Source: Mycobacterium botniense (lineage in GTDB: Bacteria; Actinomycetota; Actinomycetes; Mycobacteriales; Mycobacteriaceae). From it: a DNA stretch of 64,000 bases. The notes under the pieces were generated by a model. The model was not told the origin of the DNA, ran no database searches, and saw nothing but the letters and a program-made list of their open reading frames with translations. Location: the NCBI RefSeq assembly GCF_010723305.1, contig NZ_BLKW01000004.1:1240001-1304000 (forward strand). The letters are read 5' to 3'. Positions 24,424 through 38,438 of this stretch are shown in pieces. Position 1 is the stretch's first letter, and every line of letters starts with the position of its first letter. The position numbers and the translations under genes were made by a program.

Positions 24424-24449
24424 CGCGCTACTTCTGTCTCTCCGATGGC

Positions 24450-24532
24450 TCAGGCCGGGATCGGTGTGAACGCGGCGCCCGGGCCACCTTTGGCGTTGAC
24501 GTCGTCCAGGATGGCGCTGAACAGTGTGAACC
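24450..24532 (-). pseudogene. Orphan C-terminal tail of a second protease-fold paralogue
   Basis: The minus strand encodes ILDDVNAKGGPGAAFTPIPA and a stop, nearly identical to the last residues of the gene at 23761-24423 (one residue differs, A for G). The DNA of 24450-24510 repeats 23761-23821 with only two or three changes. This is the 3' end of a tandem copy whose body is gone; its right edge abuts an IS256-type remnant at about 24533. Confidence 0.75.
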
Positions 24533-24649
24533 CGCATTGCGAATAACATGCACCACACAGGTTTGGATCACGGTGTCGGGGAAGATCGAGCGGATCGCAT
24601 CAGGCAAGCCGGGCAGCCCGTCGCACGCCGATGGCCAGATAGGCCCCTT
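24533..24649 (-). mobile_element. IS256-family (Mutator) transposase remnant
   Basis: The minus strand encodes GPIWPSACDGLPGLPDAIRS followed by IFPDTVIQTCVVHVIRNA, which matches the IS256 transposase core (CDGLKGLPDAI, then QTCVVHLIRN), including the first half of the Asp/Glu/Glu catalytic region. Only about 38 residues remain. The right half of the transposase is missing where the protease tail begins, so the element or a recombination at it probably removed the paralogue's body. Terminal repeats were not found. Confidence 0.7.
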
Positions 24650-25153
24650 GGTGCCCACCACCCCGCCCCCGGCCACGCCCACACCGGTAACCCATCGGCA
24701 GACACTGCCGGCCATCGCGACCCCCATCGTGTTGTTCGCGCCCACCCTTAAAGGCACGCAAGCGTTATTGAGCGTACTTAAGCTAAAGCTGAGGTGAAGT
24801 GGCGTTAAGGACGACGGCTTACCCCAGCAAGTTCCACAGCGAATAACGAAGTCCACAGGACGGGACGGACGCGAATGACAACGGCCTTCGGCGAGGTGTC
24901 CGGTGCCATTTCGTGCTGGCTCGACGACAGTCGAAAGCCGCATGCTGAGCCGCCTTGCCCATGCGCGTCCGCACGGTCTCAAATCCAGTCGTCTCAAATC
25001 CAGTCTCAGTGGGGTTGGCGCTTTTCGCAGTTGATCTGGCACCTTACGAAATCGCAGGGGCGTGTTATTCAAGCTGGCATTTGTGACCGCTTCGACCACG
25101 CGCGCGTCGCTCAGCGACTCAGACCTGTCGGTGGAAAGTCCTATCGTGATCGC
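24650..25153. other. Non-coding interval before the DUF6338 gene
   Basis: About 500 bases without a supported gene on either strand. Long frames cross it but have no family pattern or start signals. The stretch 24975-25000 repeats CAAATCCAGTC twice. The part from about 25080 must hold the promoter of the DUF6338 operon. Confidence 0.4.
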
Positions 25154-25864
25154 ATGCTCGTAACTGGATGGCAGCAGGCTCTGACCGTCCTGGTGATCGT
25201 GATTCCCGGATTCGTCCACCAGATCGTTCGATCGCGCCTGCGGGGGCCCACTCCCGAAGATGGCGACTTGGGCGTGCGCGTCCTGCGTGCGCTGACCACA
25301 TCAGGCCTGTTCGCCCTGATCTACCTCATCGCCCTCGGTCAAATACTCACATCGGCGATCAGTCATCCGAGGTCCTACCTTGACCATCCTCGCTCCACAG
25401 CGCTGCTGTTGTTCGCGCTCGTGTTCCTAATCCCGGCGGGTGTAGCGGTAGCACAACACGCCCGCAACACCCGCCGGCTCTATCCGAACGTGTCGTGGAA
25501 GCAGGTCTTTCGGGTCTACAACCCCACGCCGACCGCATGGGATTTCGCGGTGAACCGTGTCGGTCCAGGATACGTACGCGTCCTCAGTAAGGACGGCAAT
25601 TGGGTGGGTGGTTACGCCGGCGAGGACTCGTTCTACACCAACTTTCCGCAGTCTCGCGAGATCTTCGTCGAAACGGCTTGGCGCCTCGACGAGCAAGGCA
25701 AGTTCGAAAAGCCGATCGCGGGAAGTGCGGGCCAGTGGATCAAGTGCGATGATGCACCGGTTATTGAATTTCTCAGGCCACAGGACACCTCGCGGGATAG
25801 ACCGGCACCGCAGGACGAGCAGGCGGATACTGGTAGGAGCGAAGCAGGAGGTGAGCCGCAGTGA
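25154..25864 (+). CDS. DUF6338-family membrane protein
   Basis: A 236-residue protein. Helix one (MLVTGWQQALTVLVIVIPGFVH) is followed by a second at about 50-72 and a third at about 88-108, then a soluble domain. That domain carries the DUF6338 pattern: TAWDFAVNRVGPGYVRVLSK, DGNWVGGYAGEDSFYTNFPQ, and REIFVETAWRLDEQGKFEKP, ending IEFLRP. I start at the ATG at 25154, because 93 residues upstream in frame are non-membrane and low quality. Function unknown. Its TGA overlaps the GTG of a small proline-rich protein (GTGA). Confidence 0.75.
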   Translation: MLVTGWQQALTVLVIVIPGFVHQIVRSRLRGPTPEDGDLGVRVLRALTTSGLFALIYLIALGQILTSAISHPRSYLDHPRSTALLLFALVFLIPAGVAVAQHARNTRRLYPNVSWKQVFRVYNPTPTAWDFAVNRVGPGYVRVLSKDGNWVGGYAGEDSFYTNFPQSREIFVETAWRLDEQGKFEKPIAGSAGQWIKCDDAPVIEFLRPQDTSRDRPAPQDEQADTGRSEAGGEPQ

Positions 25865-27984: not shown

Positions 27985-29244
27985 TCAGCTTCCGAACAGG
28001 TGCAGCGACGCCCATAACGCCACCAGCGCGGCGAGAAGTGCCGCTGGTGTGGTGAGCACGCTAAGTCGGGTGAATTCGGTCAGGCTGGTGGCGTGGTCAT
28101 GCTGGTGCAGGACACGTCGCCACAACATGGTGGCAAGTGAGCCGGTGTAGGTGAGATTAGGGCCGATGTTGACCCCGATCAGCACAGCGAGCACTGCTGC
28201 GGGGCCGCCCGCGGCGGTCAGGGGCAGCAAGACCAGCACCGCGGGCAGGTTGCTGATCAGGTTGGCGGCCACTGCGGCCACCGCGGCGATGCCGAGCAAT
28301 CCGGTCAGCCCGCCGGTGTGGGGTAGCCACCCGTCAATCGTGTCATCGAGGCCGTTGTCGATGACCGCGTGGACCACGAGAGCCAGGGCCAGCACAAACG
28401 CCAAAAACGGCGGGTCAGCGGCACCGATGATCGAGGTTAGCCGCAGCCGCCGGCACCGGATGGCGCGTGCGGTCATGACCAGCGCTCCTGCCGCTGCCGC
28501 CCACGCCGGGTTCACACCGAGTGTTGAGGTGATGGCGAACCCGGCCAGGGTGGCGCTCAAGGTGGCGAGGGCAAACCATGGCGGCGCGCTGGGCTCGGGG
28601 GTCTCTGACGGGGCCGGTGCAGCGACGAGATCCCGGCGGAAGAAATAGCGGAACACCGCGAATTCGGTAATTATCGCGATGAGCCAGGGCAGCGCCATCA
28701 GACTCGCGAACCGGAGAAAACTCAACCCGCTGGCGTGAAAGGCCAACAAGTTGGTCAGGTTGGAGACGGGCAGCAACAGCGAGCCGGTGTTGGAGAGATG
28801 GGTACAGGCATAAACGTGGGGACGAGCCCGCGCTGCCAGGCGGGCAGCGGTCGCGAACACGACCGGGGTTAGCAGCACCACGGTGGCGTCGAGGCTGAAC
28901 ACCGCGGTCACCAGCGAGGCCACCACGAACACCGACGTCAGCAGCCGGTCCGGCTGGCCCCGCGCCATGCGCGCCATCGCGGTTCCGCACCAGCTGAACA
29001 GGCCCTCGTGGGCGCACAGCCGGGCCAACACCAGCACTGCGGCTAAAAATCCGATGACCGGTGCCAGCTCGGTGAGCTCGCTGCAGGCGTCGGTCGGCGA
29101 GATCACCCCAACGGTGACCAGAATCGAGGCTACGGGCACGGCGATGACGGCCTCGGACCAGCCGAAGGGGCGAATCACCGCCCACGCCAACACCGTCAGC
29201 AACCCGGCAACTGACCACGTTTCGGCCCCGATCGCGCTCATCAC
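27985..29244 (-). CDS. ArsB/SLC13-type anion transporter
   Basis: A 419-residue membrane protein with 10-11 hydrophobic segments, of the ArsB/NhaD ion-transporter superfamily. The two matching halves carry FSLDATVVLLTPVVFA plus LLPVSNLTNLLAF in the first and ISNLPAVLVLLPL plus GVNIGPNLTYTGSLATMLW in the second. The exact substrate (arsenite or another anion) cannot be read, and no arsR gene is nearby. It is 12 bases downstream of the MFS gene, so it belongs to the PadR-MFS-ArsB operon. Confidence 0.83.
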   Translation of the reverse strand: MMSAIGAETWSVAGLLTVLAWAVIRPFGWSEAVIAVPVASILVTVGVISPTDACSELTELAPVIGFLAAVLVLARLCAHEGLFSWCGTAMARMARGQPDRLLTSVFVVASLVTAVFSLDATVVLLTPVVFATAARLAARARPHVYACTHLSNTGSLLLPVSNLTNLLAFHASGLSFLRFASLMALPWLIAIITEFAVFRYFFRRDLVAAPAPSETPEPSAPPWFALATLSATLAGFAITSTLGVNPAWAAAAGALVMTARAIRCRRLRLTSIIGAADPPFLAFVLALALVVHAVIDNGLDDTIDGWLPHTGGLTGLLGIAAVAAVAANLISNLPAVLVLLPLTAAGGPAAVLAVLIGVNIGPNLTYTGSLATMLWRRVLHQHDHATSLTEFTRLSVLTTPAALLAALVALWASLHLFGS

Positions 29245-29256
29245 AGTCGTCCCCGA

Positions 29257-30543
29257 CTACTCGGCCGGCGAATGCGTCACACCGGGTTCGCAACCCGCGC
29301 TCGTCATCTCAGCGGCGCGCGCAGTGGTACCGGGTTGCAGCACCGAGCGGTACTTGACCCAAATGACCAGTGCTCCCACCGACAGCGCGCCCAGCACCGT
29401 GAATGTTGTTCGGTAGCCGAATTCTTGGGCGAGGTATCCCCCTAACAAGGGGCTTATCGCCGCGCCGATGCCTTGGGCGGTCAGCACCGCGCCCTGGCCG
29501 GCATTGATGTGGCCGGTGCCGTCCAGTAGCCGGGCCACCAGCCCGGGGACGGCTACCGAGAGCATGCCCGCGCCAATACCGTCGAGGATTTGCACGGGGA
29601 TGACGCCCCATGTGGTGATGATCCCGGCGGCAATGAGCCCGCGGATGGGTAGTGCGGTGAACGCGATCATGATGGCCAGCCAGTAGCCACGGGTTTCAGC
29701 GATGCGCATGGCGCTCAGCGCAGCGCCGATCATCACGGCTTGGGCGATCACGACGGTGCTCGCCACGGTGATAAACGGGTTGGCGTGGGTGGCGACGACG
29801 GCCAGCCCATACAGTGGCAGCATCGCGGCGTTGCCGAGGTGAAACAGGGTGACCGCGCCCGCTAGCGCCAGCAGTGGAGGAGATTCGACCAGCGCCTGCA
29901 GTCCTCTGCGGCGATTCTGGTGGTGGTCGGTTGTGATAGCGCCGCGCGCGGCTTGGTGGTCGATGCGGCGGGCCGGGATCATCAGCACCGCGGTGATGGT
30001 GATCAGTGCGAACAGGGCAGCTAACCAGAACACCGCGGCAAATCCATAGCGCCAGCCCAGCAACCCGGACAGCGCCGCGCCGGCCATGTTGCCCGCGTGG
30101 TTGTAGGCCTGATTACGGCCGTTTTGGGCGGTGAACCCGGCTTGGCGAACCACACCAAGGGTGATGCCGATCACCGCGGGGCCGAGCACCGCGCCGGCGA
30201 TCGCGGTGGCTGCCTGCGCGCCCGCAACAACCCAGAATTGCCGTGACAGCAGGATCAGGCCTGAGGCGGCGACGGTGAAGACACCGGCGACGATGACGGT
30301 GGCCCGTTTACGGGTGGTGGCATCGATCAACGCCCCCGCTGGGGTGGTTGCCACCAGCCCGGCGATTCCGCCGATGGCGGTGACAGTGCCGATGGCCCCG
30401 GTGGCCCAGCCACGGCCGGCCAGCAGCACCCCCAAAAACGGGCCGATACCTGCGTGCATGTCAGCCATGAAGAAATTCACCGCCAACAGCGCGGCGCGAT
30501 CGCGGGCCCGGCTCGCCGGTGCTGAACGGTCTGGTGTTACCAC
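29257..30543 (-). CDS. MFS transporter, copy 1 of the MFS/PadR cassette
   Basis: A 428-residue, 12-helix major facilitator. The motif-A loop reads GALIDATTRKRA between helices 2 and 3, and the second half has GVIPVQILDGIGAGMLSVAVPG. It shares the order and several stretches of copy 2 (35346-36713), including LLDGVGAG-like and HxGNAAMLPL segments. I place the start at the GTG at 30543, eight bases after an AAAGGA site; an ATG at 30615 would add 24 low-complexity residues. Substrate unknown; drug or sugar efflux is typical. It lies between the PadR and ArsB-like genes in one operon. Confidence 0.85.
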   Translation of the reverse strand: MVTPDRSAPASRARDRAALLAVNFFMADMHAGIGPFLGVLLAGRGWATGAIGTVTAIGGIAGLVATTPAGALIDATTRKRATVIVAGVFTVAASGLILLSRQFWVVAGAQAATAIAGAVLGPAVIGITLGVVRQAGFTAQNGRNQAYNHAGNMAGAALSGLLGWRYGFAAVFWLAALFALITITAVLMIPARRIDHQAARGAITTDHHQNRRRGLQALVESPPLLALAGAVTLFHLGNAAMLPLYGLAVVATHANPFITVASTVVIAQAVMIGAALSAMRIAETRGYWLAIMIAFTALPIRGLIAAGIITTWGVIPVQILDGIGAGMLSVAVPGLVARLLDGTGHINAGQGAVLTAQGIGAAISPLLGGYLAQEFGYRTTFTVLGALSVGALVIWVKYRSVLQPGTTARAAEMTSAGCEPGVTHSPAE

Positions 30544-30680
30544 TGGGCTGGTCCTTTCTCGCATGCTTGAGGACAGCGGCGGTGCCGGGGCGGGCCGGAG
30601 TGCTGTCATGCCCAACCGGTTTGTGGGGAGGCTTTCCGGCGAGCCGCAGGATGGGGAGCCGGGCTCAGCACCGCGCCCTG

Positions 30681-31535
30681 TTAGTCGGATTCGGCGAGCA
30701 GGGTGTAAATGTCGCGGCGGGCGTTTTTGAGGATGGTGACGACGCGCTGCAGTTGGTCCGGAGCGGTCGCGTAGACGGCCCGCACCGCGCCGATTAACTC
30801 ATCCAACAGCTCCCGCAGGTTCACGTGAGCGGAGTCGACCGCTTCGGCGATCTGCGTCCATGGCGGGGTTTTGATCGTCGCGGCGGCGGCGCGCCCCTTG
30901 TCGGTCAACTCGAAAAGCTTTTGGCTCCCCCGGCTTTCGGAACCGACGATCAGTCCCTCCTCGTCGAGCAGCTGCAGCGTCGGGTATATCGAGCCGGGGC
31001 TGGGCCGCCACAAATCGTGAGTGCGTGCGGCGATTTCCTGGATCATCTCGTAGCCATGCATGGGGCGCTCGCTGAGCAGCGCCAAGATGGCCGCGCGAAC
31101 ATCACCACGGCGCCCGCGGCGACCGGTGGCCGACCCGCGCCGGGTACCGCGGGCGCCTGGGCCGAAGTCGAATCCGAAACCGGCGCCGGGCCCGAGACCA
31201 AGGCCGGCGCTGGGCCGCAGGTCAACATCCCACCCGGGGCCGGCGGGGCCATGGCCGTGAGGCGGCGGAGGGTGGCCGGGATGTTTTTTCGGCCCGGGAA
31301 CCTTCTTCCCCGGCACCTTTTTGCCAGGAGCTTTCTTTGGGGCGGGCCGGTGCTCCCGGGGTGGCCGAGCGGGGCCCGGCGTGGAGCCCGGGGCGAGCCT
31401 GGGACGAGGGTCATGGCCGGGGCCGGGGTGATGCGCGCGGCCGTATCCGGCTTCCCCATCGGGTTCGGGTCTGACGCCCTTCTCATCGGACTCCCCGTGG
31501 ACCCGGCGGTCGTCCGGCGATGGTATTTCACTCAT
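30681..31535 (-). CDS. PadR-family regulator, copy 1, with basic Gly/Pro/Lys N-terminus
   Basis: A 284-residue PadR regulator. The winged helix is at about 145-225: GDVRAAILALLSERPMHGYE, PSPGSIYPTLQLLDEEGLIV and FELTDKGRAA. A C-terminal dimerisation helix follows. The first ~140 residues are unusual for PadR: Gly/Pro-rich with the lysine repeat KKAPGKKVPGKKVPGPKKH, likely to bind DNA or RNA without sequence specificity. It starts at the ATG at 31535 after an AT-rich inverted repeat (31574-31595) and heads the PadR-MFS-ArsB operon, so autorepression is likely. Confidence 0.88.
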   Translation of the reverse strand: MSEIPSPDDRRVHGESDEKGVRPEPDGEAGYGRAHHPGPGHDPRPRLAPGSTPGPARPPREHRPAPKKAPGKKVPGKKVPGPKKHPGHPPPPHGHGPAGPGWDVDLRPSAGLGLGPGAGFGFDFGPGARGTRRGSATGRRGRRGDVRAAILALLSERPMHGYEMIQEIAARTHDLWRPSPGSIYPTLQLLDEEGLIVGSESRGSQKLFELTDKGRAAAATIKTPPWTQIAEAVDSAHVNLRELLDELIGAVRAVYATAPDQLQRVVTILKNARRDIYTLLAESD

Positions 31536-31573
31536 GGTCGCCTCCCGCAGCCGCAGCACACTTGCGATATGAA

Positions 31574-31595
31574 ACGATATATCTATTAATATCGT
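31574..31595. promoter_or_regulatory. Inverted repeat ACGATAT-N8-ATATCGT, probable PadR operator
   Basis: Perfect 7-base arms with an 8-base AT-rich spacer lie 39-60 bases upstream of the first padR ATG. An additional ATATG/CGATAT half-site is just outside (31566-31580). PadR operators are commonly ATGT/ATAT-type dyads overlapping the promoter, so autoregulation is the simplest reading. Confidence 0.65.
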
Positions 31596-31709
31596 ATTGC
31601 AAGCACGGTGTGGAGGCTCAGTGCAGGCGGTGCTGGTGTCATCCCTTTCGGGGGTGCGCATGGCACAAGCGAGGTCAGGGCCGCCGGCGACGCCCGGGAG
31701 CGGCGTGGG

Positions 31710-33983
31710 TCAGTGCGTCAAGGTCAGTGCGTCAATGCGATAGTGGCCAGCAGTCCAGGGTGCAGTACTGGGGCTAGGTGTCAGCGTAACCGTGACAAGG
31801 GCTTTGCCTGCGGTGAGCGACTCAGGCACGAGGTATGCGTCCTCTAGCCAGCGGTGGGAGGTATTGCTGCGTGGCTGTAACCAGTTCCCGGCAGGTGCGC
31901 CGTCAAGGGCGACATCTGCCGATTGATAGCCGTCTCCCTGGTCAGACATGCGGCGCAGCACGATGCCGTGGTTGTCCGGGCCGATCAGGACGTGGAATGT
32001 GATCGTGTCGCGGGTGAAGCGCACGAACCCGATGACGGGGCGGGTGTCCTCGCTCCCCTCGTACTCGCTGATCAGCATGTGCTCGGTGGCGGCACCGTCG
32101 GTGTAGCCGTGCAGCAGCCGGCTGACCGGATCGGCGGGGTTGATGTCGTCGCTGCGTGTCATGGTGTCGTTCGGTTGCGTGTAGAGGAATGCGGTTGAGC
32201 TGTAATACGGTTGAACCAGATTGCGTTTGCCGTGTTCGATGCCGAAGCGGATGCCGGAGTGGTAGTCGATGGCGTCGGCAAGCAGCAGCCGGTAGGCGGC
32301 AACGCAGTAGTCTGTGCACCCGTTCGTGGCCACGCGGTGGTCGGGTTGGCCGGTGAGCGGAGCGCTATAGCGGCTGCCGTTGTTGAAGTACCAGCCACCC
32401 TCGTAAAAGTCCTCCGTGCCGGTGCCGTACCACTGCGGCGACGCGGAGCCGTCCGTGTACACGCGCTCGGCACCTTCCAGGAAGTACGGGGCTTCGGCGC
32501 TGAACGACGTTGTGATCCGGGAACCACGCATGGTGTGGCTGACGCCGACGAATTTGCCGTGGCCCTGCTCGTCGGCGAACAACCAGTCCTGGCCGAGAAT
32601 CGTTGGTCCGGCATGCGAGCGGGCGGTGAAGTAGCCGGCGCGGCCGCTGGCCAGCGCGGGTGCCCATTGCGGGTCGGGTGTGGTCGCGACCTCGCTGTCG
32701 AGCCCGGGGACGGGGTCGTCGGTGGTGTTGACGAGACAGATGCGGGCAGAGCGGGCGAAGGGCATCGGCCACCATTCCGCCAGCGACACCGGTCCCCCGG
32801 CTTGTGGGATGGTGGCGAACATCAGCGATCGCACGGTGCTGACACCCAGCCCGGCGCCGAAGAATTCCCCAACTGGGGAGTCGACCATGGTTCGTCCGTC
32901 GAACTCGATGCGCAGCCGCACGCCGGCCAGGAGCTGATCTGCCGATTCTGGTAGTTGCAGCCGCAGCGCCGAGATCATGCCCGGTCCCGCCGGTTCGGCG
33001 ACCGTGAGCTCGGTATGGGCGCCCAGGTCGACGCTCCGACGGTCATGGATGAGTCCGGGCATTTCCGGTTTGGGATCCATGGTGCCCGCCGCGCCGAGCA
33101 TGGCGAGTACGTCGAGCGCGGGATCGGAGGGCGAGAAAGTGCTCACGCCGTCGGCCGTTGCGAACTTGCGATAGTCGATGTGGTAGTACTCCACATTCGA
33201 TGTGACACTGATCCGCATCGACTGCCGGTACGGCATCGGCACCTTGACGTACACGCCCCCCGGCGACTGCGCGGCGTTGGCCACCAGAGGCCACCGGAAT
33301 GGCGCACCCAGCGCACCGTCGACCAATGCTTGCACCGGGGCGTCTACGACTGGGTTTCCATCTAGCTCAATGCGGATCGTTCCCAACGCACGCACATTGC
33401 CGCCGTCGCGGGTGAACCAGATCGAATCAACCTCGCCGGCACCGCGATCCTCGGCGATCACACAACCGGCACCACCGGAAGCCAGACAGCCACCGGTACC
33501 GTTGCGATTACCGGTGGACACGTCGAAATCTCCGCCGCTGCGATCGAAACTTGACACCTGCAGGGTTTGCGTGTCGGCGCTCAGATACGGCAACCGATCC
33601 AATCGGCGGTAGGTATCCCAGCCCACCAACCGTGTGCCGAGTTCTGGGATCACCGGCTCAGCGGGCGCCGCGCTTGCAGGACCCATGGCGGCACTCCCCA
33701 GCAGCGGTACCGCGAACATCGTCGACAACGCCCGGACCACCTCCGGCATAGCACCGAAGGCTACTTTCCCCTGAGGTTTCCCCCGGGGTTTCCCCTGAGG
33801 TTTCCCCCGGGGTTTCCCCTGAGGTTTCCCCCGGGGTTTCCCCTGAGGTTTCCCCCGGGGTTTCCCCGGAGGTTTCCCCCGGGCTGTTACACCGTTCAGG
33901 ATCTGCACTATCGCCGCGATGATGCGGGCCGGCGCCGGTGCCGCGGCGTCGGCCTGACGGCCCGCCGGGGACGTCATTGCCAA
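31710..33983 (-). CDS. Secreted GH172-like (DUF2961) glycoside hydrolase
   Basis: A 757-residue protein. Two DUF2961/GH172-type jelly-roll domains follow a signal-like segment (about 88-107, MFAVPLLGSAAMGPASAA). Recognisable parts are DRGAGEVDSIWFTRDGG, KVPMPYRQSMRI, SLAEWWPMPFARSA and GTGTEDFYEGGWYFN; GH172 catalytic Glu residues fall in such motifs. Known GH172 enzymes act on furanosides, including D-arabinofuranosides of mycobacterial cell walls, so a role in arabinan turnover is possible. The first ~75 residues contain five GKPRGKPQ repeats ahead of the signal. An ATG at 33749 would leave the repeats untranslated and give a normal signal peptide, so the start is uncertain. Confidence 0.78.
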   Translation of the reverse strand: MAMTSPAGRQADAAAPAPARIIAAIVQILNGVTARGKPPGKPRGKPQGKPRGKPQGKPRGKPQGKPRGKPQGKVAFGAMPEVVRALSTMFAVPLLGSAAMGPASAAPAEPVIPELGTRLVGWDTYRRLDRLPYLSADTQTLQVSSFDRSGGDFDVSTGNRNGTGGCLASGGAGCVIAEDRGAGEVDSIWFTRDGGNVRALGTIRIELDGNPVVDAPVQALVDGALGAPFRWPLVANAAQSPGGVYVKVPMPYRQSMRISVTSNVEYYHIDYRKFATADGVSTFSPSDPALDVLAMLGAAGTMDPKPEMPGLIHDRRSVDLGAHTELTVAEPAGPGMISALRLQLPESADQLLAGVRLRIEFDGRTMVDSPVGEFFGAGLGVSTVRSLMFATIPQAGGPVSLAEWWPMPFARSARICLVNTTDDPVPGLDSEVATTPDPQWAPALASGRAGYFTARSHAGPTILGQDWLFADEQGHGKFVGVSHTMRGSRITTSFSAEAPYFLEGAERVYTDGSASPQWYGTGTEDFYEGGWYFNNGSRYSAPLTGQPDHRVATNGCTDYCVAAYRLLLADAIDYHSGIRFGIEHGKRNLVQPYYSSTAFLYTQPNDTMTRSDDINPADPVSRLLHGYTDGAATEHMLISEYEGSEDTRPVIGFVRFTRDTITFHVLIGPDNHGIVLRRMSDQGDGYQSADVALDGAPAGNWLQPRSNTSHRWLEDAYLVPESLTAGKALVTVTLTPSPSTAPWTAGHYRIDALTLTH
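33765..33884. repeat. 24-bp tandem repeat, about five units
   Basis: TTTCCCCTGAGGTTTCCCCC plus GGGG is repeated about five times with almost no variation, encoding GKPRGKPQ on the minus strand near the start of the GH172-like gene. Because 24 is a multiple of three, unit gain or loss would not shift the frame. This is a candidate variable-number repeat. Confidence 0.88.
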
Positions 33984-34131
33984 GACGGGAGATCGTGCGG
34001 GTAGATTTTTGTGCCATAAGGGGCATTCGATCGACCAGGGGGTAGTGCTGCCGGTAACGATGGGTATCGGCTGCCGAGAGGTCTCGGCGAGGATCAGATT
34101 GCGGTCACCATGACCACCAACCCATCCCTGC

Positions 34132-34170
34132 TAACCCGATCAGGAGTGTGCAGTAACCCGATGAGGAGTG
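34132..34170 (+). promoter_or_regulatory. Duplicated ribosome-binding segment
   Basis: TAACCCGATCAGGAGTG (34132-34148) is repeated as TAACCCGATGAGGAGTG (34154-34170), with one difference. The second copy's GAGGAG lies four bases before the ATG at 34173 and serves as its ribosome site. The first copy gives a spare Shine-Dalgarno. Confidence 0.6.
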
Positions 34171-34172
34171 GT

Positions 34173-34484
34173 ATGCGAAGTGTGAAGAGCAAGAAACTCA
34201 TTGCTGGCCCGTTGCTCGCGGGTGTGGTGGGGATGGCCATGGCGGGCTTTGGTGTCCCGGCAGCGAGTGCGGACCCGCCGCCGGGGCCGTGGCAACCCGG
34301 ACCGCCACCGCCTGGACCGATGGGGCCGTGGCAACCCGGACCGCCACCACCTGGACCGATGGGGCCGTGGCAACCCGGACCGCCACCACCGCCGGAACCG
34401 TTCGGACCGCCGCCCCCGCCCCCACCGTTCGGACCGCCGCCCCCGCCGGCACCGTTCGGACCGCCGCCCCCGCCGGGTTTTTAA
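34173..34484 (+). CDS. Secreted proline-rich repeat protein
   Basis: A 103-residue exported protein. The signal peptide (residues 1-34) has a basic RSVKSKK start and ends PAASADPP. The mature part consists of GPWQPGPPPPGPM units (three) and FGPPPPPP units (three), an extended polyproline rod. Such small proline-rich secreted proteins are common in mycobacteria and thought to be cell-wall associated. The upstream ATGs at 34110 and 34161 are less likely starts. Confidence 0.7.
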   Translation: MRSVKSKKLIAGPLLAGVVGMAMAGFGVPAASADPPPGPWQPGPPPPGPMGPWQPGPPPPGPMGPWQPGPPPPPEPFGPPPPPPPFGPPPPPAPFGPPPPPGF

Positions 34485-34596
34485 CGCCGTCGCGCTACGG
34501 CACCTGGTTGTCCGCCTCAATCGAGGTGGTTGGGGCGGACAACCGGGTGTACCCGTACCTCGCAACACGGGCTGCCGGTCGCCCGTTGCCTGGTCC

Positions 34597-34938
34597 TCAA
34601 TCGGCCTCGGTCGCCCCTCCCACGAACCCGCGGCACGGATGCACTTCGACGGTGAAGATCCCGGCGGCCACTGCCGGGTCCTCGTTCATCAGCGCAACGG
34701 TGTCATCGACCGTGCCAGTTAACACCCGGATGCCCCAAAGATCTGAGTCATCGAGCACGACCAAAGTCGCTGCGAGCACACCGGCATCGCGCAGGCCAAA
34801 GTTGCGCCGCGCGTGCTCCCACATCAGCGACGGTGCCGATTCATCTGAGGAATTCGGCCCGGGTTTGAGGATGACGAGGCTATACGGCCGCGCATTGATC
34901 ATTTGTTGGTTCATCTCGTCGTCGGTGAAAGTTTTCAT
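34597..34938 (-). CDS. YCII-like small protein
   Basis: A 113-residue alpha/beta protein with a dimeric ferredoxin-like YCII pattern: helix WEHARRNFGLRDAGVLAATL, then LWGIRVLTGTVDDTVALMNE and DPAVAAGIFTVEVHPCRGF. It is cytoplasmic. The ATG at 34938 follows an AGGGACGG-type ribosome site; the frame open to 35295 is Arg-rich and unlikely. YCII proteins act in diverse small-molecule reactions, and the substrate is unknown. Confidence 0.7.
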   Translation of the reverse strand: MKTFTDDEMNQQMINARPYSLVILKPGPNSSDESAPSLMWEHARRNFGLRDAGVLAATLVVLDDSDLWGIRVLTGTVDDTVALMNEDPAVAAGIFTVEVHPCRGFVGGATEAD

Positions 34939-35345
34939 CCACCGTCCCTTTCTGCAGACCGGCCGAGCCTGTCGCCCCACGTCAGCCAGTCGGCGGGTGA
35001 GCCGTTGTTCGCTCCCGCAGCCGGCCTGGTGGTCGTAATCCTGCTTACCAGCTGATCGGCGCAACTGCTCCAGGCCAGCGCTGGGTGAATCCCAGCTACC
35101 GTCAGCTGGCAAGATCAATCCCCCGGCACAGCGTGAGCGGGCGGGCCGAAATCGTCGCCGAATGCGTGTCTGCGCGACGTGTAGCGGTGGGCTGATCAGG
35201 TCCGACGGCACAACCCGGGCGTGGGTCTTCAGATCTATTTCATCTTCGCTGGCTACCGTGGGCCGAACGACACCAATCCAGACCGGGAGTCCCATGACGA
35301 GCTACCCACCAATCGACACGGGCCCGAACCAACCCGCATCCAGCG

Positions 35346-36713
35346 ATGCCGGACATCGCTGACGTGCTTCCACGGCGAATATCACACGCCCTGGACTTAC
35401 TCAGTTTCTCATTGGCCGATGTTCGTGATGGTCTAGGTCCGTACCTGTCGATCTACCTGCTGCTGACCCACCATTGGGACCAGGCCTCGATCGGCTTTGT
35501 CATGGCGGTCGGCGGTATCGCGGCGATCATCGCGCAGACGCCGGTCGGCGCCTTGGTCGACCGCACAACCGCGAAGCGGGCGCTGATCATCGCCGCTGCA
35601 GCGGCGGTCAGTGCCAGCGCTTTGGCGATGCCGCTGTTTCCCGGCTTTTCTTCGATCTCGTTCCTGCAAGCGGCCACGGGGATCGCGGGCTCGGTTTTCG
35701 CGCCGGCATTGGCCGCGATCACGCTCGGGATTGTCGGTCCCCGATTTTTCTCCCGGCGAGTTGGCCGCAACGAGTCGTTCCGACATGCCGGAACTGCGGC
35801 GACCGCTGCTGCTGCCGGTGGACTGGCTTATTTCACCGGTCCCGTGGTGGTGTTTTGGGTGCTGGCGGGGATGGCGGTGATCAGTGTGCTGGCAACCCTG
35901 CGGATCCCGCGGGAAGCGATCGACCACGACATGGCACGCGGTATGGACCTCACCCCGGCTGGGCCGCCGAGACAACCCTCGCGGTTCGCGGTGTTGCTGC
36001 ACAACCGCAGATTGATGATTTTCGCCGTCGTTGTGGTGGTCTTTCATTTCGCCAACGCGGCCATGCTGCCGCTGGTGGGCCAAGAGCTGGCGCTGCACAA
36101 CAAAGGCATCGGCACGGCGCTGATGTCGGTGTGCATCGTCGCCGCGCAGGCGGTCATGGTCCCGGTGGCGTACATCGCGGGCGCTAAGGCCGATCGGTGG
36201 GGACGAAAGCCGATCTTTTTGACGGGTTTCGCGGTGTTAACGGTTCGTGGCTTGCTCTACGCGATCTCGGACAACTCCTACTGGCTTGTCGGTGTGCAGC
36301 TGCTCGACGGTGTCGGCGCCGGTATTTTCGGGGTCTTATTTCCGCTGATCGTTCAGGACGTTACCCATGGAACCGGGCGTTACAACGTCAGCCTGGCGGC
36401 GATCACCACCGCGTGGGGTGTGGGCTCTTCGCTCTCGAACTTCGCCGCTGGCTGGATCGTGGTCACCGCCGGCTACCACGTGGCATTCGTGACCCTGGGC
36501 GCTATCGCTGCCGCCGGTTTCGTCTTCTACCTGATCGCGATGCCGGAAACACGTGATAGTTCCCGATCGGTCGGCATCCCATCGTCGCAGGACGAGGCTG
36601 ATTGGCGGGTATTGGCCCAGTCACCCCCCAATCGTCACGTGCGGGTAACGGCGCCGGTCGACCGGCCTGGCCGGAGCCATCTGGCGCCCGACCCCAACGG
36701 GGACCGTGACTGA
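35346..36713 (+). CDS. MFS transporter, copy 2 of the MFS/PadR cassette
   Basis: A 455-residue, 12-helix major facilitator with motif A GALVDRTTAKRA and the helix 7-8 counterpart GAKADRWGRKPIF. The second half contains LVGVQLLDGVGAGIFGVLFP, as in copy 1. The last ~45 residues are polar. It precedes the second padR gene by 106 bases on the same strand, whereas copy 1 follows its padR. The gap holds a strong dyad, so padR copy 2 has its own regulated promoter. Confidence 0.86.
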   Translation: MPDIADVLPRRISHALDLLSFSLADVRDGLGPYLSIYLLLTHHWDQASIGFVMAVGGIAAIIAQTPVGALVDRTTAKRALIIAAAAAVSASALAMPLFPGFSSISFLQAATGIAGSVFAPALAAITLGIVGPRFFSRRVGRNESFRHAGTAATAAAAGGLAYFTGPVVVFWVLAGMAVISVLATLRIPREAIDHDMARGMDLTPAGPPRQPSRFAVLLHNRRLMIFAVVVVVFHFANAAMLPLVGQELALHNKGIGTALMSVCIVAAQAVMVPVAYIAGAKADRWGRKPIFLTGFAVLTVRGLLYAISDNSYWLVGVQLLDGVGAGIFGVLFPLIVQDVTHGTGRYNVSLAAITTAWGVGSSLSNFAAGWIVVTAGYHVAFVTLGAIAAAGFVFYLIAMPETRDSSRSVGIPSSQDEADWRVLAQSPPNRHVRVTAPVDRPGRSHLAPDPNGDRD

Positions 36714-36765
36714 GCCGAGCACCCGACCGCCGGAAATTCACCCCAAACCGTTGCATCTCGATAGC

Positions 36766-36791
36766 TTCCGATATATCTTTTGGTATCGGAA
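36766..36791. promoter_or_regulatory. Inverted repeat TTCCGATA-N10-TATCGGAA, probable PadR operator
   Basis: Perfect 8-base arms with a 10-base AT-rich spacer lie 29-54 bases upstream of the second padR ATG. The core CGATAT resembles the operator before padR copy 1 (ACGATAT/ATATCGT), so the two regulators may recognise related or even the same sites. Confidence 0.68.
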
Positions 36792-36819
36792 CTGCGCCAC
36801 TGGAACGGAGAGCTGAACG

Positions 36820-38082
36820 ATGACTGAGCCCCAAACATCCAGCGACCACCCGCACGGGCGATCCAAGAAAGACAAAGACAAGGCCGCACAGGTCACCGAT
36901 CCCCTCACCCGCGGGGAATCCGCGGACAGAAATATCGAAACTCCCGTCGAGCTCGAAGCTGGTGCCGACCATCGACCCTTGAGTCCCACGGCACGGCCGC
37001 ACGAGTACGGAGAGCCCAGCGAAGACCTCGACCTCTACCAAGACAAACACCCGATCGAGGCCGACTGGGAACCCGACTACGAGGAGGAGTCGGTGCTGGA
37101 GCCCGACGATGAGGAGGAGCCTGACTACGACGACGAAACCGACCTCGAACCGTACTACGGCGAGGAGCCCGGATTCGGCCCGGGTTTCGCCCCCGGCGAC
37201 GACCCTCAGCACCGTCCCGGATTAGGCCACCGCGAACCGAAACTCGCTCCTGGCCCCAAACATGGCCCGGGTCGCCCGGCAGGGCCGCCGCATGAGCACG
37301 GCCCAAAGAAAGGTCCCGGCAAGAAAGCCCCCGGCAAGAAGGTACCCGGGAAAAAGGCGCCCGGGCCGAAAAAGCACCGGGGCCACCTGCCCCCACCTCC
37401 GCATGAGCATGGCCCCGGCCACCCACCGCCGCCGGCTGAAGGACCCCCACCCCCGCCGCATGCAATCCGGGACGCTGAGCATCCCCATGGACATGGGCGT
37501 GAGCATCACCGCGAGGCGAACGGACCAGCGCCGGATTTTGGCCTTGGGCCCGGAGCTGGTTTCGGGCCCGGCCCCGGTTTTGGTTTCGGGATAGGTCTCG
37601 GCCGGGAGGGCCGCGGCCGCCGGCGTGGTGGCCCGGGTCGGCGCGGCCGCCGCGGTGATGTGCGCGCGGCGATTCTGGCCCTGCTCGCGGAGCACCCTAT
37701 GCACGGTTACGAGATGATCCAGGAGATCGCCGAACGGAGCCGGGACATGTGGCGGCCCAGTCCGGGATCGGTGTATCCGACATTGCAGTTGCTAGAAGAC
37801 GAGGGCCTGATCGTGGGCTCCGAAACTGAAGGCAACAAAAGGCGTTTCGAGTTGACCGACGAAGGTCGGGCCGCGGCTGAAAAGATCAAGACCCCGCCAT
37901 GGGAGGAGATCACGGAAGACGCCGACCAAGATCAGGTCAACCTGCGCGCAGCCTTGGGCCAGCTATACGGGGCGGTGGTGCAATCCGTGTACGCGGCCAC
38001 CGGTGAACAACAGCAACGCGTCGTGGCTATTCTCAAAAAAGCCCGCCGCGAGATCTACACCATGCTGGCTGAATCGGAGTAG
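36820..38082 (+). CDS. PadR-family regulator, copy 2, with long acidic and basic N-terminus
   Basis: A 420-residue PadR regulator, far longer than the usual ~110-190. Residues 1-130 are acidic with Glu/Asp runs. Residues 150-200 are basic with KKGPGKKAPGKKVPGKKAPG and PGPKKHRGH repeats. Residues 200-275 are His/Gly/Pro-rich. The winged helix starts at about 285 (GDVRAAILALLAEHPMHGYE) and is very close to copy 1. ATG start after a dyad operator. The acidic block could bind metal or mask the basic block. Autorepression and cross-regulation with copy 1 are likely. Confidence 0.88.
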   Translation: MTEPQTSSDHPHGRSKKDKDKAAQVTDPLTRGESADRNIETPVELEAGADHRPLSPTARPHEYGEPSEDLDLYQDKHPIEADWEPDYEEESVLEPDDEEEPDYDDETDLEPYYGEEPGFGPGFAPGDDPQHRPGLGHREPKLAPGPKHGPGRPAGPPHEHGPKKGPGKKAPGKKVPGKKAPGPKKHRGHLPPPPHEHGPGHPPPPAEGPPPPPHAIRDAEHPHGHGREHHREANGPAPDFGLGPGAGFGPGPGFGFGIGLGREGRGRRRGGPGRRGRRGDVRAAILALLAEHPMHGYEMIQEIAERSRDMWRPSPGSVYPTLQLLEDEGLIVGSETEGNKRRFELTDEGRAAAEKIKTPPWEEITEDADQDQVNLRAALGQLYGAVVQSVYAATGEQQQRVVAILKKARREIYTMLAESE

Positions 38083-38135: not shown

Positions 38136-38438
38136 TCAACAGGCCGGTACCGCGGGCCCTGCGAGCAGTTCACCCCATTCGTGACGGGCCGCTGACTGTG
38201 CACCGACGAAACTGTGGATGCTCTTTCGGTCGGCATCGGCACCGCTTGCGAGGTGAACAAGCGCCCACGCCATCGTGAACACCGGCATTTGGTGTCGTTT
38301 GGCGGCGCTGAGCAATTCGTGTAAAGCCGTCTCCGAAGAGCACCGGCGAAGGCCGATCAGTATGCCCTGCGCGGTGTCGAGGATCCGACCACCATGCAGG
38401 TCGAATGAGGTCTGGGCGGGAAACCAGTCCGCCGTCAT
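38136..38438 (-). CDS. ANTAR-domain protein
   Basis: A 100-residue protein whose residues 15-65 fit the ANTAR RNA-binding three-helix fold: RILDTAQGILIGLRRCSSET, ALHELLSAAKRHQMPVF, and MAWALVHLASG. ANTAR proteins bind paired hairpins in mRNA leaders to prevent termination. No sensor domain is attached, so it could act alone or be a short relic of a GAF-ANTAR protein. The tail is Ala-rich and ends in Cys. Confidence 0.72.
   Translation of the reverse strand: MTADWFPAQTSFDLHGGRILDTAQGILIGLRRCSSETALHELLSAAKRHQMPVFTMAWALVHLASGADADRKSIHSFVGAQSAARHEWGELLAGPAVPAC

Follow-up and report, generated by a model that had tools for sequence, protein, structure and literature searches.

Organization of the locus

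The 64,000-nucleotide stretch of Mycobacterium botniense DNA analyzed here (the window, part of a genome of 4,335,050 bases labeled G000) harbors two transporter-regulator units, each combining an MFS transporter gene with a PadR regulator gene, on the two sides of a gene for a GH172 hydrolase (Table 1). On the minus strand, the order of transcription is operator, padR1, MFS1 and an ArsB/CitMHS-like transporter gene, with intergenic gaps of 65 and 12 bp; the third gene, 12 bp after MFS1, belongs to the padR1 unit, and GH172 lies upstream of that unit on the same strand. On the plus strand, MFS2, a second operator and padR2 follow each other, and genes for a poly-proline protein and a YCII-like protein sit between the two units. 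We consider it rather likely that two separately assembled units have come to flank an older GH172 gene, and that their paralogous PadR proteins probably repress their own genes through a 30-bp operator.

Domains were assigned with Pfam and NCBIfam, and the gene lists of compared loci come from a simple composition-based caller, which missed some genes and starts (the list around locus L217 is incomplete). An initial annotation, made from the sequence alone, had named MFS, PadR and GH172 genes, and these assignments hold, with two matches to Pfam MFS_1, two to PadR and one to DUF2961.

The paralogous regulators and their heads

Both regulators match Pfam PadR (PF03551), with 72.6 and 73.9 bits against a cut-off of 27, and their domains are 68% identical over 138 aa. 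The unusual repeat heads pointed out in the initial annotation are present in both, with 4 KKxPG repeats in PadR1 and 4 in PadR2. Relatives of the PadR1 domain occur in 132 of 148 Mycobacterium genomes (E 1e-25), in single copy except for two in the window genome and two in genome G026. The gene for the short-head form adjoins a glycerol-kinase-like gene in 6 of 6 loci in one set and in 9 of 12 in a second (3 loci are common to both), this label being given by eye and checked with Pfam (FGGY) in L012 only; egt-like genes are close to it in L010, L012 and L019. A short-head copy was not seen in the window genome, whose other two Pfam PadR matches fail the E 1e-25 threshold.

In a sub-clade of the family, the head is far longer and combines KKxPG and PPHEHGPG repeats with an acidic part. 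In a quick-method tree of the PadR domain alone, 30 of the 58 rows form one branch with a support of 88, within which both PadR1 and PadR2 fall. The KKxPG repeats are found in all 29 readable heads of this branch and in none of the 28 rows outside it; the head of L038 is out of frame. PadR2 groups with protein P0011 and others (support 92), and PadR1 forms a long branch of unsure placement; this tree does not pair the two as sisters. Judged by their sequences, both regulators are paralogous members of a single PadR family of mycobacteria. In L038 (the same stretch as L276) and in L281, the second PadR seems to have its KKxPG head out of frame with the PadR domain open, which could reflect a sequencing error or decay.

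The segment WRPSPGS-YPTLQLL, which we take to be the DNA contact segment by analogy with other PadR proteins, is identical in 23 of 29 aligned rows, PadR2 included, and the other 6 rows differ at one or two places. PadR1 departs from this consensus by a V to I exchange alone. Its start is likely the ATG at 31535, picked from the alignment with the heads of its relatives and from the position of the operator; it is preferred because a longer reading frame from 31661 would include the operator.

A conserved predicted operator upstream of padR

The predicted operator is 30 bp long and has four half-sites in the pattern CGATA-N5-CGATATATCG-N5-TATCG, with 20 fixed letters. An operator-like dyad before each padR had been proposed initially, and this proposal is borne out: each window dyad deviates by 1 mismatch, while the best of 200 dinucleotide shuffles deviates by 7 and 6, and the two are the only sites at three or fewer mismatches in the 4.3-Mb genome, where a reversed-pattern control returns 0. 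The sequence GATATATC precedes padR in 74 of the 80 named loci and is absent from all 1013 control stretches (900 bp each) taken away from padR in these loci. Of the six misses, five are on contigs ending close to the gene, and the sixth concerns L036.

A search for the left part of the site in the 148 genomes gave matches in 145, of which 34 are listed (the entry for G120 is perhaps incomplete). A perfect left part appears in 24 of the 34 genomes listed, one each among the matches listed. Its distance to the padR domain is 293-428 bp in 22 of these genomes; in the remaining 2, the padR match is at the edge of another contig. A wider regulon in the window genome was looked for and rejected: the left part has 7 two-mismatch matches besides the two operators, with 1 for the reversed control, and a search for the 10-letter core finds one extra CGATATATCG and three CGATAAATC sites. 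The extra perfect CGATATATCG, at G000:C2:1362164-1362173, is situated between methyltransferase-like and glycosyltransferase-like genes (by eye) and has no good outer half-sites.

Both spacers of the operator measure 5 bp in 8 of the 9 KKxPG-head sites; among 70 short-head sites, the spacers are 5+6 in 41 and 5+5 in 21. Scoring with fixed 5-bp spacers gives 5 mismatches in 40 of 73 loci and 10-11 in 2 of 73, because the right spacer is 6 bp long at 41 of the 70 short-head sites; this scoring is without 7 of the 80 named loci (L023, L038, L053, L064, L069, L073 and L074). With free spacers, all 9 KKxPG-head sites and 69 of the 70 short-head sites have four or fewer mismatches, as do 20 of 2000 random stretches drawn from these loci, real sites included; L036 has no site in this scoring. 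The nine KKxPG-head sites comprise, among others, the two window sites and the hand-added L217, L269, L272, L276 and L281. For these scorings, the padR start was placed at whichever ATG or GTG came first behind the dyad, and the scored stretches are therefore dyad-anchored; the GATATATC counts, the whole-genome 30-bp search and the left-part search are not. Further duplicate stretches are L219 (L010), L218 (L054), L270 (L012), L271 (L016) and L280 (L019).

Upstream of the GH172, poly-proline, YCII-like and ANTAR-like genes of the window, the best match to the operator has 8-11 mismatches. For MFS2, the best upstream match shows 10 mismatches in the window and between 8 and 10 for 7 of 8 relatives, within the range of shuffles, as are the best matches upstream of GH172 and of the poly-proline and YCII-like genes.

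Two transporters of probably separate origin

The initial annotation described duplicated MFS-PadR cassettes that share sequence in both members. The PadR domains do share sequence, but duplicated cassettes are not confirmed: MFS1 and MFS2 are 38% identical over 387 aa, less alike than each is to other relatives (65-80%), and the gene order differs, with padR1-MFS1 in one unit and MFS2-padR2 in the other. A recent duplication of the cassette was rejected on these two grounds. MFS1 has a paralogue at 69% in its own genome (C4:82160). Across the 147 other Mycobacterium genomes compared, relatives of MFS1 (65-75%) are present in 11 and relatives of MFS2 (68-80%) in 27.

The surroundings of these relatives are distinct as well. 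None of the 11 MFS1 relatives adjoins a padR of this PadR family (judged by coordinates), and none adjoins an ArsB-like gene; among the 148 genomes sampled, padR1 and MFS1 are neighbors in the window genome alone. A layout shared with other loci was found for the second unit: the order MFS2-operator-padR recurs in 8 other loci, namely L010 (M. sp. MFM001), L014 and L017 (M. celatum), L038 (M. kyorinense DSM 45166), L054 (M. kyorinense E861), L272, L281 and L282. L282 is a second locus in the genome carrying L038, the head in L272 matches M. xenopi protein P0006, and the domain side in L281 matches M. heckeshornense protein P0021. The order is limited to a small part of the genus, being found in 2 (G071 and G094) of the 39 other genomes in which MFS2 has a relative at E 1e-80. 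Next to the MFS1 relative, 4 of 9 fetched surroundings (L209, L210, L214 and L215) contain a response-regulator and histidine-kinase pair, with domains verified in L209, which to our eye resembles PrrA/PrrB.

All NCBIfam matches of MFS1 and MFS2, to named drug and sugar carrier models, fall far under the cut-offs; the NCBIfam and PDB relatives of MFS2 are weak and unspecific, mainly efflux carriers with some uptake carriers, and the uptake of a glycan fragment suggested in the initial annotation thus lacks support. In Pfam, the ArsB-like gene exceeds the cut-offs of two families, scoring higher for CitMHS (110 bits) than for ArsB (92.5 bits, cut-off 22.2), and stays under the NCBIfam arsenical pump cut-offs (167/457, 125.6/415 and 120.1/760 bits). 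Its relatives occur in 118 of 147 other genomes (E 1e-60). In L110, L113 and L115, an ArsB-like gene lies ~0.9 kb after the MFS2 relative, forming a recurring cluster; in L110, a TetR gene precedes the MFS2 relative, and a beta-lactamase-fold protein (just below cut-off) is encoded between it and the ArsB-like gene.

Table 1. Features of the two units and their neighbors, with positions in the window
Feature	Position	Strand	Basis
ArsB/CitMHS-like transporter, last of the three padR1-unit genes	27985..29244	-	Pfam CitMHS, ArsB
MFS1 transporter	29257..30615	-	Pfam MFS_1
PadR1, 284 aa, KKxPG-repeat head of ~138 aa	30681..31535	-	Pfam PadR; tree
Predicted PadR1 operator, 30 bp, ending 29 bp 5' of the padR1 start	31565..31594	-	1 mismatch in 20 fixed letters
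GH172 (DUF2961) hydrolase	31710..33983	-	Pfam DUF2961
Short poly-proline protein, likely signal peptide (by eye)	34110..34484	+	ORF; tandem repeats
YCII-like protein (label unverified)	34597..34938	-	63/67% identity to proteins after padR in L014/L038
MFS2 transporter	35346..36713	+	Pfam MFS_1
Predicted PadR2 operator of 30 bp in the MFS2-padR2 gap, ending 31 bp 5' of the padR2 start	36759..36788	+	1 mismatch in 20 fixed letters
PadR2, 420 aa; long head (KKxPG repeats plus an acidic part)	36820..38082	+	Pfam PadR; relatives P0001-P0023; tree
ANTAR-like gene, 3' of padR2	38136..38438	-	ANTAR 24.6 bits, under cut-off 27.3

The GH172 gene and the other neighbors

The hydrolase matches Pfam DUF2961 with 206.8 bits (cut-off 27), carries a signal-like segment (by eye), and has the exo-alpha-D-arabinofuranosidase 8ic8 among its PDB relatives. 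Relatives at 68-74% are present in 22 of 147 other genomes. In all 22 neighborhoods (~3-6 kb per side, some ended by contig ends), no relative of MFS1, MFS2, PadR, the ArsB-like or the YCII-like protein is detected at E 1e-6, and GATATATC does not occur. In 13 of 19 other loci, GH172 is instead near genes starting with M[DN]LPVMPPVSP and MAAAEE, presumably DNA-ligase genes. In two of the 22 genomes (L224 and L226), an ANTAR-like relative at 68-72% lies 1.5-1.6 kb from GH172. This suggests that the block of poly-proline, YCII-like, MFS2 and padR2 genes was inserted into an older GH172/ANTAR-like pair, since these genes separate the two in the window. With no linkage in 22 of 22 genomes, an ANTAR-like neighbor in two and no operator of its own, GH172 looks like a bystander to the PadR units.

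The 5' end of the GH172 frame contains five copies of a 24-bp tandem repeat (33765-33883), read as KPRGKPQG from the long start. An internal start at 33749 would put the repeat outside the gene, and the matches of relatives mostly begin past it. In L225 (1735-7424), a GH92 glycosidase gene (Pfam) is found close to GH172, and that locus is a more promising glycan locus than the window.

The initial YCII label finds no backing, as the protein matches no Pfam family up to E 10; its structure model (pLDDT 41) was too poor and was left unused. The gene does follow padR in L014 and L038, making it a recurring companion of MFS2-padR in two other genomes, and was not found in the composition-based gene lists of L272 and L281. 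Most of the poly-proline protein consists of 39-bp and 27-bp tandem repeats (34283-34476), and a Pfam search returned no match for it.

Proposed mechanism and alternative explanations

Self-control of the PadR proteins via the predicted operator is likely, because a conserved site upstream of the own padR gene follows the pattern of a gene that controls itself. Each PadR would probably repress its own gene at the operator, which ends ~30 bp before the start codon. Like half-sites lie 10 bp apart, about one helical turn, a spacing that two PadR dimers bound next to each other would require. If a ligand released PadR1 from its site, expression of a small transporter operon made up of padR1, MFS1 and the ArsB-like gene would rise, since the PadR1 operator heads these three genes; export would be the simplest purpose. 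The PadR2 operator would act directly on padR2 and at most indirectly on MFS2, because it lies behind that gene. Binding of each regulator to the site of the other is plausible, even probable, given that the contact segment and the operator design are common to both. This much of the two cross-talking sensors envisaged in the initial annotation survives, while the GH172-containing regulon assigned to them does not: GH172 and its neighbors have no such site.

Several observations weigh against this explanation. Ten of the 34 genomes listed in the left-part search, the window genome among them, have only imperfect matches, and in L281 a site upstream of MFS2 has 6 mismatches, under the lowest of 100 shuffles (8). 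PadR1 could also have arisen by duplication of PadR2 and subsequent fast change, because its branch is long and its place unsure. The ANTAR-like link concerns two genomes, in which the two genes between it and GH172 are absent from the window. Finally, MFS and ArsB-like genes meet repeatedly: an MFS2 relative adjoins an ArsB-like gene in 10 of the 39 genomes, and in the window the ArsB-like gene adjoins MFS1. This hints at a shared function that the favored explanation leaves out.

The locus was initially interpreted as an inverted cassette duplication around GH172 and as one regulon, in which a glycan fragment is released and imported under the two PadR sensors. The similarity of the PadR domains, their common operator design and the central position of GH172 would fit such a system, and GH172 enzymes are exo-D-arabinofuranosidases acting on cell-wall arabinan (PMC10115798). 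The low identity and different order of the MFS genes argue against it, as does GH172, which is without operator and unlinked in every genome compared. We rejected the sugar or glycan regulon, which appears very improbable, with operators missing at GH172, poly-proline, YCII-like and MFS2 genes and linkage missing elsewhere. Alternatively, the block might be an imported or rearranged mobile island, with the two units close by chance. A Mutator-family transposase fragment (Pfam) at 24428-25219, a few kb before the block, the missing counterpart of padR1-MFS1 among the 11 MFS1 relatives and the apparent insertion between GH172 and the ANTAR-like gene point in this direction, but the GC content is flat over the block (0.62-0.67 per kb) and nearly all rows of the relative search are mycobacterial, leaving an island unlikely.

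KKxPG-headed PadR proteins might also mainly coat the chromosome, with the operator only tuning their amount and the transporters being incidental. The restriction of lysine-proline heads to the clade and the single perfect site per genome beside the own gene, among the matches listed, agree with this, as do the abundance in dormancy and suggested DNA-topology role of the M. smegmatis protein Msmeg_6227 (PMC6131537). However, the long acidic part of the heads speaks against plain DNA coating, Msmeg_6227 goes with the core form, which probably lacks the repeats, and the MFS2 neighborhood recurs; we regard coating as the main role as quite doubtful. Only speculatively could both functions be combined, so that the headed clade, with its histone H1/HupB-like lysine-proline head, would act as site-specific repressor and as chromosome-coating protein in slow or dormant mycobacterial cells, with Msmeg_6227 as the core form and the 30-bp operator as the point of self-control. 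Self-repressing PadR proteins in two separately assembled units remain our preferred explanation, and this testable account of a regulator replaces the tempting sugar-regulon story.

Relation to known systems

Within the literature searched, the headed PadR sub-clade and the operator look new, and the other parts are of known kinds; in the open-licence literature, neither a lysine-proline-headed PadR clade nor this operator was found, nor anything related to the operator together with PadR. LmrR/PadR-type repressors of transporter or stress genes offer a PadR beside a transporter gene, probably self-controlled, yet the operator, head and transporter family of the window units differ. The PadR fold is common to Rv3488 of M. 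tuberculosis (PDB 5zhc), which matches the PadR1 domain at E 2e-6 and is distant, the NCBIfam Rv3488 model giving 28.6-31.3 bits against a cut-off of 140. Histone H1 and mycobacterial HupB tails have repeated KKAPGKK-type letters. The PadR heads contain repeats with such letters, but are joined to a PadR domain and accompanied by an acidic part and PPHEHGPG repeats. The window GH172 has its DUF2961 domain in common with the exo-D-arabinofuranosidases of family GH172. Among these is MAP_0339c, the homologue from M. avium paratuberculosis, which is named in PMC10115798 and was not obtained in soluble form there.

The closest studied relative is probably Msmeg_6227, a PadR-family protein that was reported solely from dormant cells of M. 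smegmatis, with a role in DNA topology raised by the authors (PMC6131537). Two growth-inhibiting phage proteins, LHTSCC gp46 and Wildcat gp11, co-precipitate with Msmeg_6227, which is described as non-essential (PMC7474061), and it is listed among the ClpC1 partners (PMC10433963). It is probably a short-head core member of the family, judging by its size of ~27 kDa and a locus number near egtA-E (MSMEG_6246-6250; PMC6154287), like the short-head copy near glpK- and egt-like genes; MSMEG_6229 together with glpK was not found in the open-licence literature. The passages covered of PMC7474061, PMC6131537 and PMC10433963 name no operator for it. Its probable counterparts here, the core copies, have no KKxPG head, unlike PadR1 and PadR2. 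The conserved predicted operator defines a DNA target for a PadR family present in 132 of the 148 sampled Mycobacterium genomes and opens a way to study a mycobacterial regulator about which little is understood; Msmeg_6227, the probable M. smegmatis member of this family, known from dormancy and phage-protein work, gains a predicted site.

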